NCBI GenBank assembly: GCA_945861875.1
Contig: CAMAWC010000032.1
Location: forward strand, 1-39,909
From: Bordetella parapertussis
Lineage (GTDB): Bacteria; Pseudomonadota; Gammaproteobacteria; Burkholderiales; SG8-39
Length of the DNA stretch: 39,909 nt
Direction of reading: 5' to 3'
The notes under the pieces: model-generated
The model's input: only the letters and a program-made list of their open reading frames with translations
Told to the model about the DNA's origin: nothing
Database searches by the model: none
Shown: positions 24,148 to 36,486 of the stretch, one piece after another
Position numbering within the stretch: position 1 is the stretch's first letter
Layout of the letters: each line of letters begins with the position of its first letter
Program-made: the position numbers and the translations under genes

Positions 24148-24176
24148 ACTGAAACACGCATCCCAAGGGAATCCAC

Positions 24177-24272
24177 ATGATTGAGATGAAAGATGACCTA
24201 ATCGAACAAGGGGGCGACGCCCCCTTGTATATCCCCCAATCTAGAATTATCGAAGGTGTCGGCCATGATTGA
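24177..24272 (+). CDS. Upstream ORF made from the duplicated start of the gltL-like gene
   Basis: The first 19 bp of gltL (ATGATTGAGATGAAAGATG) occur at 24177-24195 as well as at 24265-24283. The upstream copy has its own Shine-Dalgarno (AAGGGA, 7 nt) and opens a 31-codon frame through the family C hairpin. It stops at TGA 24270-24272, inside the first codons of gltL, an 8-bp overlap. It was probably the original gltL start, separated from the gene by the insertion. Ribosomes ending here could restart on gltL. Whether the peptide has a function is unknown. Confidence 0.5.
   Translation: MIEMKDDLIEQGGDAPLYIPQSRIIEGVGHD
24202..24237 (-). repeat. Family C hairpin repeat, copy 1
   Basis: A 36-bp block whose core is the palindrome AAGGGGGCGACGCCCCCTT, flanked by TCGAAC and GTATATCCCCC. 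Read on the minus strand it matches the copy at 28595-28630 at 35 of 36 positions. It sits between the duplicated gltL start sequences. Confidence 0.9.
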
Positions 24273-24993
24273 GATGAAAGATGTATCGAAGTGGTACGGC
24301 AGCTTCCAGGTGCTGACCCACTGCAGCACACACGTTGCCAAGGGCGAGGTCGTGGTAGTGTGCGGCCCCTCGGGCTCGGGCAAATCGACGCTGATCAAAT
24401 GCGTCAACGCGCTCGAACCCTTCCAGCAGGGCGAGATTACCGTCGATGGCATCTCGGTCGGTGATCCGAAGACCAATCTGCCGAAACTGCGCGCGCGCAT
24501 CGGCATGGTGTTCCAGAACTTTGAGCTGTTCCCGCACCTGTCGATCCGCGAAAACCTCAGCCTCGCGCAGGTCAAGGTGCTCGGTCGCTCGCAGGACGAA
24601 GCCAACGAGCGCGGTCTCAAATACCTTGACCGTGTCGGGCTGATCGAGCAAAAAGACAAATTTCCGGGGCAGTTGTCCGGCGGCCAGCAGCAACGCGTCG
24701 CCATCGCCCGCGCGTTGTCGATGGACCCGATCGCCATGCTGTTCGACGAACCGACCTCGGCCCTGGATCCGGAAATGATCAACGAGGTGCTCGATGTGAT
24801 GGTCGGCCTCGCCAAGGACGGCATGACCATGATGTGCGTCACCCACGAGATGGGATTCGCCCGCACCGTGGCCAACCGCGTAATTTTCATGGACCGCGGC
24901 GAAATCGTTGAAGACGCGCAAAAGGACGACTTTTTCGGCAAGCCGCGCTCGGAGCGCGCGGTGCAGTTCCTGTCCAAGATCCTGCATCACTAA
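24265..24993 (+). CDS. gltL: Glutamate/aspartate ABC transporter ATP-binding protein GltL
   Basis: 242 residues from the ATG at 24265 (GAAGG 9 nt upstream). All ABC ATPase motifs are present: Walker A GPSGSGKST, Q-loop QNFELFPHL, signature LSGGQQQRVAIARAL, Walker B AMLFDEPTSALDPE and the switch histidine in CVTHEMGF. It energises uptake through GltJK. Its 5' end is unusual: the first 19 bp are duplicated 88 bp upstream, with a family C hairpin in between, and an upstream ORF ends over its start codon. A GTG three codons earlier (24256) is a less likely start. Confidence 0.92.
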   Translation: MIEMKDVSKWYGSFQVLTHCSTHVAKGEVVVVCGPSGSGKSTLIKCVNALEPFQQGEITVDGISVGDPKTNLPKLRARIGMVFQNFELFPHLSIRENLSLAQVKVLGRSQDEANERGLKYLDRVGLIEQKDKFPGQLSGGQQQRVAIARALSMDPIAMLFDEPTSALDPEMINEVLDVMVGLAKDGMTMMCVTHEMGFARTVANRVIFMDRGEIVEDAQKDDFFGKPRSERAVQFLSKILHH

Positions 24994-28104: not shown

Positions 28105-28575
28105 ATGTCAGACATCCCCACGCTGCGCCGCATCCTCGGGCAAAACCGCACCATCGCCGTGGTCGGCCTGTCCGCCGACTGGTTCCGGCCCAGCTACTTT
28201 GTCGCCAAATACCTGATCGAGCACGGCTACACCGTGATTCCGGTCAATCCGCGTTATCCGGAAATACTCGGCCAGAAATCCTTTAAGTCCTTGCGCGACA
28301 TTCCCGTCAAGGTTGATATCGTCGACTGCTTTCGCAAGACCGCCGACATCGTTCCCATCGCCGAGGACGCCATTGCCATCGGCGCCAGGGTGCTGTGGCA
28401 GCAAATCGGCGTGCTCAACCACGAAGCCGATGCCCTTGCACGTGCGGCCGGCCTTGATTCGGTGATGGACCGTTGCGTGAAAATAGAACACGGGCGGCTG
28501 TTCGGCGGCCTAAATTGGTGCGGCGTTAATACCGGCGTGATATCGGCCAAACGTCCGCAATGGCCGTCCCATTGA
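28105..28575 (+). CDS. CoA-binding (YccU-like) protein with a rebuilt 3' end
   Basis: 156 residues. The Rossmann-like CoA-binding fold starts IAVVGLSADWFRPSYFVAKYL and includes VIPVNPRYPEILGQ and VDIVDCFRKTADI; members bind CoA or small nucleotides and have no settled role. The ending is odd. After GLNWCGVNTGVISAKRP the frame continues QWPSH and stops at 28575. A second copy of the last 14 codons (encoding CGVNTGVISAKRPH, then TAA) lies at 28638-28682 beyond a family C hairpin. The second copy probably shows the original ending. No strong Shine-Dalgarno precedes the ATG. Confidence 0.88.
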   Translation: MSDIPTLRRILGQNRTIAVVGLSADWFRPSYFVAKYLIEHGYTVIPVNPRYPEILGQKSFKSLRDIPVKVDIVDCFRKTADIVPIAEDAIAIGARVLWQQIGVLNHEADALARAAGLDSVMDRCVKIEHGRLFGGLNWCGVNTGVISAKRPQWPSH

Positions 28576-28594
28576 CCATGCGTGCCGCATACCC

Positions 28595-28630
28595 GGGGGA
28601 TATGCAAGGGGGCGTCGCCCCCTTGTTCGA
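28595..28630 (+). repeat. Family C hairpin repeat, copy 2
   Basis: Palindromic core AAGGGGGCGTCGCCCCCTT, flanked by GGGGGATATGC and GTTCGA. Nearly identical to copy 1 (35 of 36) and related to copy 3 at 36443. It lies 20 bp after the CoA-binding stop and 7 bp before the duplicated gene end. Confidence 0.9.
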
Positions 28631-28637
28631 CCAGACA

Positions 28638-28682
28638 TGCGGCGTTAATACTGGCGTCATCTCGGCCAAGCGGCCGCACTAA
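28638..28682 (+). pseudogene. Detached duplicate of the CoA-binding gene's last 14 codons plus stop
   Basis: It encodes CGVNTGVISAKRPH followed by TAA. Compared with 28519-28560, 36 of 42 bases match. Five of the six changes are synonymous (ACC/ACT, GTG/GTC, ATA/ATC, AAA/AAG, CGT/CGG) and one is CAA/CAC. It has no start codon and is separated from the gene by a stop and the family C element. Confidence 0.85.
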
Positions 28683-28710: not shown

Positions 28711-29535
28711 ATGAACGACACCGTCAACCTTGACGCCTACTCGCCGCGCGAAATCGCCGAACGCATCGAAAATATCGGCGTTGCCAAGGCGCGCCTGCCG
28801 CTGCTCTCAATCGTGATGCTGGGCATGCTCGCGGGCGCCTTTATCGGCCTGGGGGCGCTGTACTTCACGCTGGTAACCAGCGACGCATCGCTCGGTTTTG
28901 CCGCGAGCCGCGTGCTCGGCGGCGTGTGCTTTTCCCTCGGCCTGCTGCTGGTGGTGGTGGCCGGCGCGGAACTGTTTACCGGCAACAACCTGCTGGTCAT
29001 GGCCTGGGCGGAAAACAAGCTGACCACCGCCGAAGTGATGCAGAACTGGGCGATCGTCTGCCTTGCCAATTGCGCCGGTGCGGCCGGGCTCGCGCTGCTG
29101 GTGTACTTGTCCGGGCACCTGGGCATGAACGGCGGCGGCGTGGCGCAGCAGGCGGTAAAAATCGCCGCAATCAAGGCCGGCCTGCCGACGATGCAGGCGT
29201 TTTTCAGCGGCATACTGTGCAACATCCTGGTGTGCATGGCGGTGTGGATGTCCTTCGCCTGCCGCAGCGTGGTGGACAAGATGGTCGCGGTGATATTCCC
29301 GATTTCCGCCTTTGTCGCGGCAGGCTTTGAACACAGCATCGCCAACATGTACTTTTTCCCGCTCGCGATGCTGCAGCAGGCGCACATGCCGCTGGCCCTG
29401 CCCGGCGCCGCGTTGATAGACCTGCCGCACGTGCTCGCCAACCTCGGTGCGGTCATCGCCGGAAACATTGTCGGTGGCAGCGTGGTGGTGGCGCTGGTCT
29501 ATCACGTCATCTACCGCCGCGGCACAAAAACCTGA
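28711..29535 (+). CDS. Formate/nitrite/hydrosulfide (FNT) family channel
   Basis: 274 residues and six hydrophobic segments. Family signatures are GAELFTGNNLL and GFEHSIANMYFFPLAM, whose His is the central pore histidine of FocA. FNT pentamers conduct small monovalent anions (formate, nitrite, hydrosulfide) across the inner membrane. The next gene, 42 bp downstream, is an O-acetylhomoserine sulfhydrylase, which uses sulfide, so hydrosulfide is a plausible substrate. No Shine-Dalgarno precedes the ATG at 28711, perhaps because the upstream region was replaced during the family C event. The frame is open back to a GTG at 28582, but that would translate the hairpin. Confidence 0.9.
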   Translation: MNDTVNLDAYSPREIAERIENIGVAKARLPLLSIVMLGMLAGAFIGLGALYFTLVTSDASLGFAASRVLGGVCFSLGLLLVVVAGAELFTGNNLLVMAWAENKLTTAEVMQNWAIVCLANCAGAAGLALLVYLSGHLGMNGGGVAQQAVKIAAIKAGLPTMQAFFSGILCNILVCMAVWMSFACRSVVDKMVAVIFPISAFVAAGFEHSIANMYFFPLAMLQQAHMPLALPGAALIDLPHVLANLGAVIAGNIVGGSVVVALVYHVIYRRGTKT

Positions 29536-36361: not shown

Positions 36362-36486
36362 AGCAGGCTGTTGAAAAACACAGATTCAAGATGAAAATAG
36401 AGTAACCGGGATGCACGCTTACCTCTCAGCAGCCTCTGATTCGGGGGATCTAAAGGGGGCGTCGCCCCCTTTTTCAACACCTGTTT
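36362..36486 (+). repeat. Family C copy 3 within an inverted-repeat-bounded element, also a likely terminator
   Basis: The core AAAGGGGGCGTCGCCCCCTT (36453-36472) is followed by TTTC and would terminate transcription after Bug receptor 2. The family C block spans about 36443-36478 and is more diverged than copies 1 and 2. Ends are inverted repeats: AGCAGGCTGTTGAAAAAC (36362-36379) against AAACAGGTGTTGAAAAA read on the minus strand from 36486. No gene-edge duplication was found here. Confidence 0.65.

Follow-up and report, generated by a model that had tools for sequence, protein, structure and literature searches.

Palindromic family C elements lie beside duplicated gene edges whose two copies differ mostly at silent sites

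Phages and islands integrate into gene ends, as phage 21 and e14 do in icd, and the gene end supplied by the element is mostly silently different. The gene-end copies beside the family C elements analysed here also differ mostly silently. Unlike phage 21 and e14, family C has no integrase, its insert is about 60-110 bp long and it occurs in many unrelated genes. The 20-40 bp hairpins at gene borders recall REP/RAYT elements, but no Y1 transposase was found in five genomes searched and, unlike in REP/RAYT, gene edges are duplicated.

The closest functional parallel is found among the mobile ORFs of fungal mitochondria (Allomyces atp6; Glomus atp6, atp9, cox2 and nad3), which encode homing endonucleases and bring a demonstrably foreign gene end (PMC3630166). 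In both systems a gene end is duplicated, the copies have diverged and the gene is intact. Family C, however, has no coding capacity, no homing endonuclease and mixed polarity, and therefore is not a member of that group. Bacterial MITEs (for example those of Coxiella and MITEAba12; comparators PMC5896051 and PMC6382973) are likewise short, non-coding, multi-copy and palindromic. One class of the present repeats shares terminal inverted repeats with MITEs, while the gene-edge class lacks them and duplicates tens of coding-edge bases rather than a short target site. IS1272 targets inverted repeats instead of sequences, replaces the target stem-loop and is reported without target duplication; its pathway b predicts that the whole stem-loop is duplicated around the element, with joining at one stem-loop foot (PMC5678879). 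Insertion of family C may likewise be guided by a stem-loop, and a whole stem-loop is duplicated at several loci, but, unlike in IS1272, the stem arm is often present on the insert side only. A literature search for long IS1549-like target duplications gave no direct link.

The window, i.e. the whole stretch of DNA analysed (39,909 nt, contig CAMAWC010000032.1), carries a family C element at the end of a CoA-binding protein gene. X_L denotes the in-gene copy of a duplicated edge and X_R the displaced one. Gene names throughout were given by sequence resemblance.

28105..28575, plus strand: CoA-binding protein gene (coaBP, L001), intact, ORF of 156 aa
28519..28575, plus strand: X_L, in-gene copy of the coaBP 3' edge, ending in KRPQWPSH and stop
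28576..28594, plus strand: left arm, from the coaBP stop codon to the core, holding a small inverted repeat (ATGCG/CGCAT)
28595..28628, plus strand: family C core GGGGGATATGCAAGGGGGCGTCGCCCCCTTGTTC, 34 nt
28605-28625: perfect hairpin CAAGGGGGCGTCGCCCCCTTG within the core 28595-28628
28629..28637, plus strand: variable spacer between core and displaced edge, about 8 nt
28638..28682, plus strand: X_R, displaced copy of the coaBP 3' edge (CGVNTGVISAKRPH and stop)
28578..28682, plus strand: mini-ORF (MRAAYPGDMQGGVAPLFDQTCGVNTGVISAKRPH and stop), starting 2 nt past the coaBP stop
28711..29535, plus strand: formate/nitrite-transporter-family (FNT) gene, directly 3' of the element, named by sequence resemblance

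The hairpin is of the type CAAGGGGGC-GTC-GCCCCCTTG. We observed that the last 14 coaBP codons (28519-28560) recur 119 bp further on (28638-28679) with 6 of 42 bases different, five of them silent, exactly as the first-pass annotation had claimed. The silent differences between X_L, the upstream copy, and X_R are ACC/ACT, GTG/GTC, ATA/ATC, AAA/AAG and CGT/CGG, and the sole replacement is CAA/CAC (Q/H). As a direct repeat, 28519-28559 and 28638-28678 are identical at 36 of 41 positions (spacing 119), and local alignment of the left and right sides scored 31 against a shuffled maximum of 13. Complementarity of the arm to the start of X was not significant at this locus.

The best coaBP orthologues in relatives are about 66-82% identical, and their tails often read KRP(Q/R)WLPY and stop, or similar. 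X_R was closer to these relatives than X_L at three of the five silent sites, a weak signal, and the upstream ATA codon of X_L was absent among 58 distinct relative tails. X_R sits in the native position relative to the next gene, since the order coaBP-FNT-metY is native in relatives. The presence of this order in several relatives also ruled out the FNT gene as inserted cargo. The mini-ORF stays in frame through the core into X_R; as a putative translated unit it is only suggestive, because open frames through the core are common elsewhere. We infer that the window element is a gene-edge insertion old enough to have accumulated five silent differences.

A second family C copy of the window lies at a gene start, and here the two edge copies are identical.

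24204..24237, minus strand: second family C core, at the start of a glnQ-like ABC ATPase gene (L002)
24176..24195, plus strand: displaced copy of the start edge (CATGATTGAGATGAAAGATG), with the same sequence as the in-gene one
24264..24283, plus strand: in-gene start-edge copy of the glnQ-like gene

The window also contains a family D element of about 115 nt (36366-36479), which is related to family C and has inverted repeats CAGGCTGTTGAAAAA / TTTTTCAACA around TCTGATTCGGGGGATCTAAAGGGGGCGTCGCCCCC. The genome has 8 family D copies, all of which lack a duplicated gene edge.

A core search of the same genome gave about 12 copies in which the hairpin is CAAGGGGGC..GCCCCCTTG. Another 8 copies belong to a related type that carries AAAGGGGGC..GCCCCCTTTTTCAACA and inverted repeats of its own, CAGGCTGTTGAAAAA. 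Edges were duplicated at nine to ten of the approximately 12 family C cores, with the second edge copy beginning about 8 nt past the core. Nine of these loci could be named.

Gene ends: coaBP (L001), iscS (L005), atpB (L007) and a further gene (L173)
Gene ends, continued: molybdopterin-type dehydrogenase subunit (L004) and thioesterase (L168)
Gene starts: fba (L006), hemL (L008) and the glnQ-like gene (L002)

The atpB and dehydrogenase loci are the two weakest; they are short, not significant by nucleotides alone, and were accepted on register and reading frame. Two cores of this genome, L003 (C35:21026) and C81:14667, lacked an edge duplication.

The core was present in 28 of 98 genomes of the betaproteobacterial family, with up to 53 copies per genome, and reversed control patterns never gave a match. 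We distinguished two classes. Elements at gene edges share one anatomy, in which X_L is followed by a short arm, a core that comprises GGGGGAT and a GC hairpin, some 8 variable bases and X_R. The gene-edge class comprises 39 catalogued elements in 17 genomes (a count that takes in L242 and L244, which are really nested MITEs) and hits both gene ends and gene starts. Here a gene edge and the arm stand in place of the left half of the MITE, and the right end consists of the variable bases followed by the second edge. The spacer is near-constant in length across loci (4-11 nt) and variable in sequence, the insert is about 60-110 nt and contains no ORF other than the frame running through from the edge, and terminal inverted repeats are absent, also from the window copy. 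The MITE-like class is about 105 nt long, carries terminal inverted repeats of its own (TAGGGAA..CTGAACAAG / CTTGTTCAG..TTCCCTA; 49 copies listed) and shows no gene-edge duplication. Edge duplication proved to be general. Copies without it, which the first-pass annotation had named as a refuting finding, do exist but belong to a separate class. We regard family C as a MITE-like element variant whose gene-edge form duplicates coding edges.

Core genes with the element at their edge include iscS, atpB, fba, hemL, ychF, slmA and rph, and in slmA the identical codon was hit in four species. Tandem events were observed at slmA in G104 (X-core-X-core-X), at L358 in G003, and at L219 and L362. Orthologous insertions occurred in the independently assembled genomes G003 and G028. 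A search of Rfam with six loci gave two hits, both under the gathering score, so that a known Rfam RNA family was ruled out, and no core was found in IMG/VR, which was searched for viral carriage. The RAYT gene (PF01797) had no matches in G000, G003, G009, G028 and G050, which are five of the seven genomes searched and include the genome of the window; RAYT was therefore ruled out as the mover in these five. On inspection of the core for the GTAG or CGTC tag of REP palindromes, the foot reads GATATACAAG and lacks GTAG, and CGTC occurs in the loop only.

Some related arrangements were noted separately. At the slmA 3' end of G102 (L290), an unrelated-looking repeat, GGGGACAGACCACG..CGTGGTCTGTCCCC, accompanies a duplicated gene end (GGT TAG / GGC TGA), which suggests that gene-edge duplication may extend beyond family C. 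In G028 (L328) and G003 (L329) the rph start ACGTCCGCCCGAGCGGAC is repeated two to three times in tandem with no core between the copies. At L393, L399 and L400 (G050, G116) a gene end is followed by the arm, by CTGACTC or CCC, and by a G-rich hairpin that is variant or truncated, with a single edge copy; these are possibly collapsed or ancestral insertion states. An old core-like hairpin, now decayed, lies just upstream of ychF in most of the ten species of genus g15 (L414-L423), and newer insertions are present there in G103, G104 and G036. This region is a hot spot of repeated insertion in g15.

We compared X_L with X_R codon by codon, in reading frames taken from the host genes. There were 111 silent and 32 replacement differences over 36 comparisons, which are partly dependent because slmA, ychF and rph recur across species. 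The observed silent fraction was 78%, against 41% predicted for one constrained and one dead copy (p about 1e-18), and differences were mostly silent in 22 of the 24 comparisons with at least two of them. The small numbers at coaBP had raised the concern of chance; the pattern of the whole family lies far beyond it. When the most diverged loci, L168 and rph, were left out, 90 silent and 13 replacement differences remained. At rph and the thioesterase even the replacements partly resemble orthologues (D/E, F/Y, Q/N). This silent excess indicates that both copies diverged as coding sequence, as had been suspected from the window alone, and at the family level we regard such coding divergence, read from the codons, as strongly supported. 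One member has plainly decayed: the slmA copy in G014 has one nonsense and one replacement codon. Differences were rarer beside the junction in X (52/205 vs 79/205 codons, permutation p = 0.002).

The X copies are identical at L006, L173, L202, L216, L363, L364, L366 and L377, and since several pairs are identical, insertion itself duplicates the edge. In several of these pairs the entire stem-loop is duplicated, non-coding sequence included. Mainly at gene ends, the left arm tends to be reverse-complementary to the beginning of X; the mean complementarity was 7.7 to its own X compared with 5.1 across loci (p = 3e-8), and 19 of 37 loci showed it individually. The arm is missing at the empty congener sites of G116 and G009 (locus L367), which shows that it arrived with the insert there.

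The question which copy is native had no uniform answer. The displaced copy is native-looking and the in-gene copy changed at ychF, rph and one gene of G009 (L361), while livH has the reverse polarity, with the in-gene copy native-looking and the displaced one changed. For ychF, the common congener sequence ATGTCTCTCAAATGCGG is found in the displaced start of both G103 and G104, and that of G036 has ATGTCTCTAAAATGCGG; the in-gene starts read ATGTCCCT. Over 11 comparisons X_L matched congeners at 31 sites and X_R at 28. Given this mixed polarity, neither a decay of X_R from X_L nor a generally foreign X_L holds as a rule; the counts fit best with both copies having drawn on one allele pool. In slmA of G014 and G110 species-specific changes are common to both copies, and this shows a local origin rather than one widespread foreign end. 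Spread between species was also assessed with a tree of the ychF body, in which monophyly of the occupied species was not rejected (AU p = 0.11-0.18); horizontal spread was thus not significant by this test.

The best explanation, which we hold tentatively and at slightly less than even confidence, is an edge-duplicating insertion followed by recombination with related alleles. Family C would be a palindromic mobile element that is non-autonomous and whose sequence is related to the MITE-like repeat of approximately 105 nt. Its gene-edge form would insert near a gene start or end and duplicate some 15-100 bp around the edge, so that the gene is rebuilt intact, with X_L joined to the body, and X_R is pushed beyond the hairpin. 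The insertion would be IS-like, stem-loop-associated and, judging from the frequent complementarity of the arm to X, structure-guided. Later, homologous recombination may at times have overwritten both copies, reaching X_L by way of the gene body and X_R by way of the outer flank. Related cells would be the allele source, and both copies would thus keep a functional, silently differing look. The anatomy, its recurrence, the identical pairs, the tandem events and the silent-dominated divergence of the copies are directly seen. Against the recombination step, no recombination tract was demonstrated, and an exchange that refreshed the junction-proximal part of X_R would need to end near the core. 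The allele donors would also have to be rather distant, given the serine TCN/AGY switches and the near-saturated silent divergence at atpB, rph and L362b. Of the two origins proposed by the first-pass annotation, exchange with a related allele is therefore plausible and unproven; as to an element travelling with gene ends, a foreign end in every case was not borne out by the ratio of 31:28.

The main rival, which we consider unlikely, is that translation of the displaced copy places it under selection. At gene starts X_R would keep the native ribosome-binding region and start, and an upstream ORF through the hairpin would be coupled to the real start. Among 16 start-type loci, 12 have the stop of this ORF within -35 to +12 of the true start, compared with 10 of 32 alternative frames, and ATGA/GTGA overlaps occur at rph (two species), livH and L253. 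In three species the displaced start of ychF retains the native first codons, with only silent differences among the three, but the upstream ORFs at ychF end 57-85 nt early. At gene ends a coupled mini-ORF may be read, and that of the window does begin 2 nt past the coaBP stop; the core is, however, usually open in all three frames, which makes end-type mini-ORFs uninformative, and the slmA insertions have an intervening stop codon. Coupling, moreover, would account for an open frame but not for conserved amino acids, and the G014 slmA copy contains a nonsense codon. A different possibility, to which we give a low probability, is that the element carries its own silently diverged edge, homes to the same gene in relatives and displaces the native edge, in the manner of the fungal mitochondrial mobile ORFs. 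The native-looking displaced copies and diverged in-gene copies at ychF (G103, G104, G036), rph (G102, G014) and the G009 gene agree with it, as do the single slmA codon struck in four species and an insert arm beside ychF common to species that the gene tree does not place as sisters. On the other hand, livH has the opposite polarity and the overall ratio is 31:28, the changes common to both slmA copies are species-specific, the ychF tree does not reject shared descent with loss, and more than 20 different genes would each require their own element lineage.

Ordinary duplication with decay of a dead copy, the silent excess of the window being chance, appears very improbable: some pairs are identical and the G014 slmA copy has decayed, but the ratio of 111:32 (p about 1e-18) refutes this for the family and leaves it possible for single loci. 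An assembly artefact, in which hairpins caused contigs of two strains to be joined when the genomes were assembled from metagenomes, seems hardly credible. All element-bearing comparison genomes are apparently draft and multi-contig, and strong hairpins break assemblies; yet the near-constant spacer of 4-11 nt and the existence of identical and of tandem copies speak against it, as does the recurrence of insertions across independent assemblies (G003/G028; several species for slmA and ychF).

In summary, mobile repeats are expected to break genes or to sit between them, while family C sits in the edges of core genes and leaves these genes intact. The paired edges are natural two-copy records from which decay, selection and allele exchange can be distinguished. 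They may account for odd silent hypervariability at gene termini, and they can mislead the annotation of gene starts and ends. A bolder and rather doubtful reading is that a gene-less hairpin element swaps in silently recoded gene starts and ends and spreads between species at fixed edges, the displaced edges being coding-constrained. If true, this would be a natural gene-sparing insertion system that resembles fungal mitochondrial homing elements yet lacks a homing enzyme in cis.
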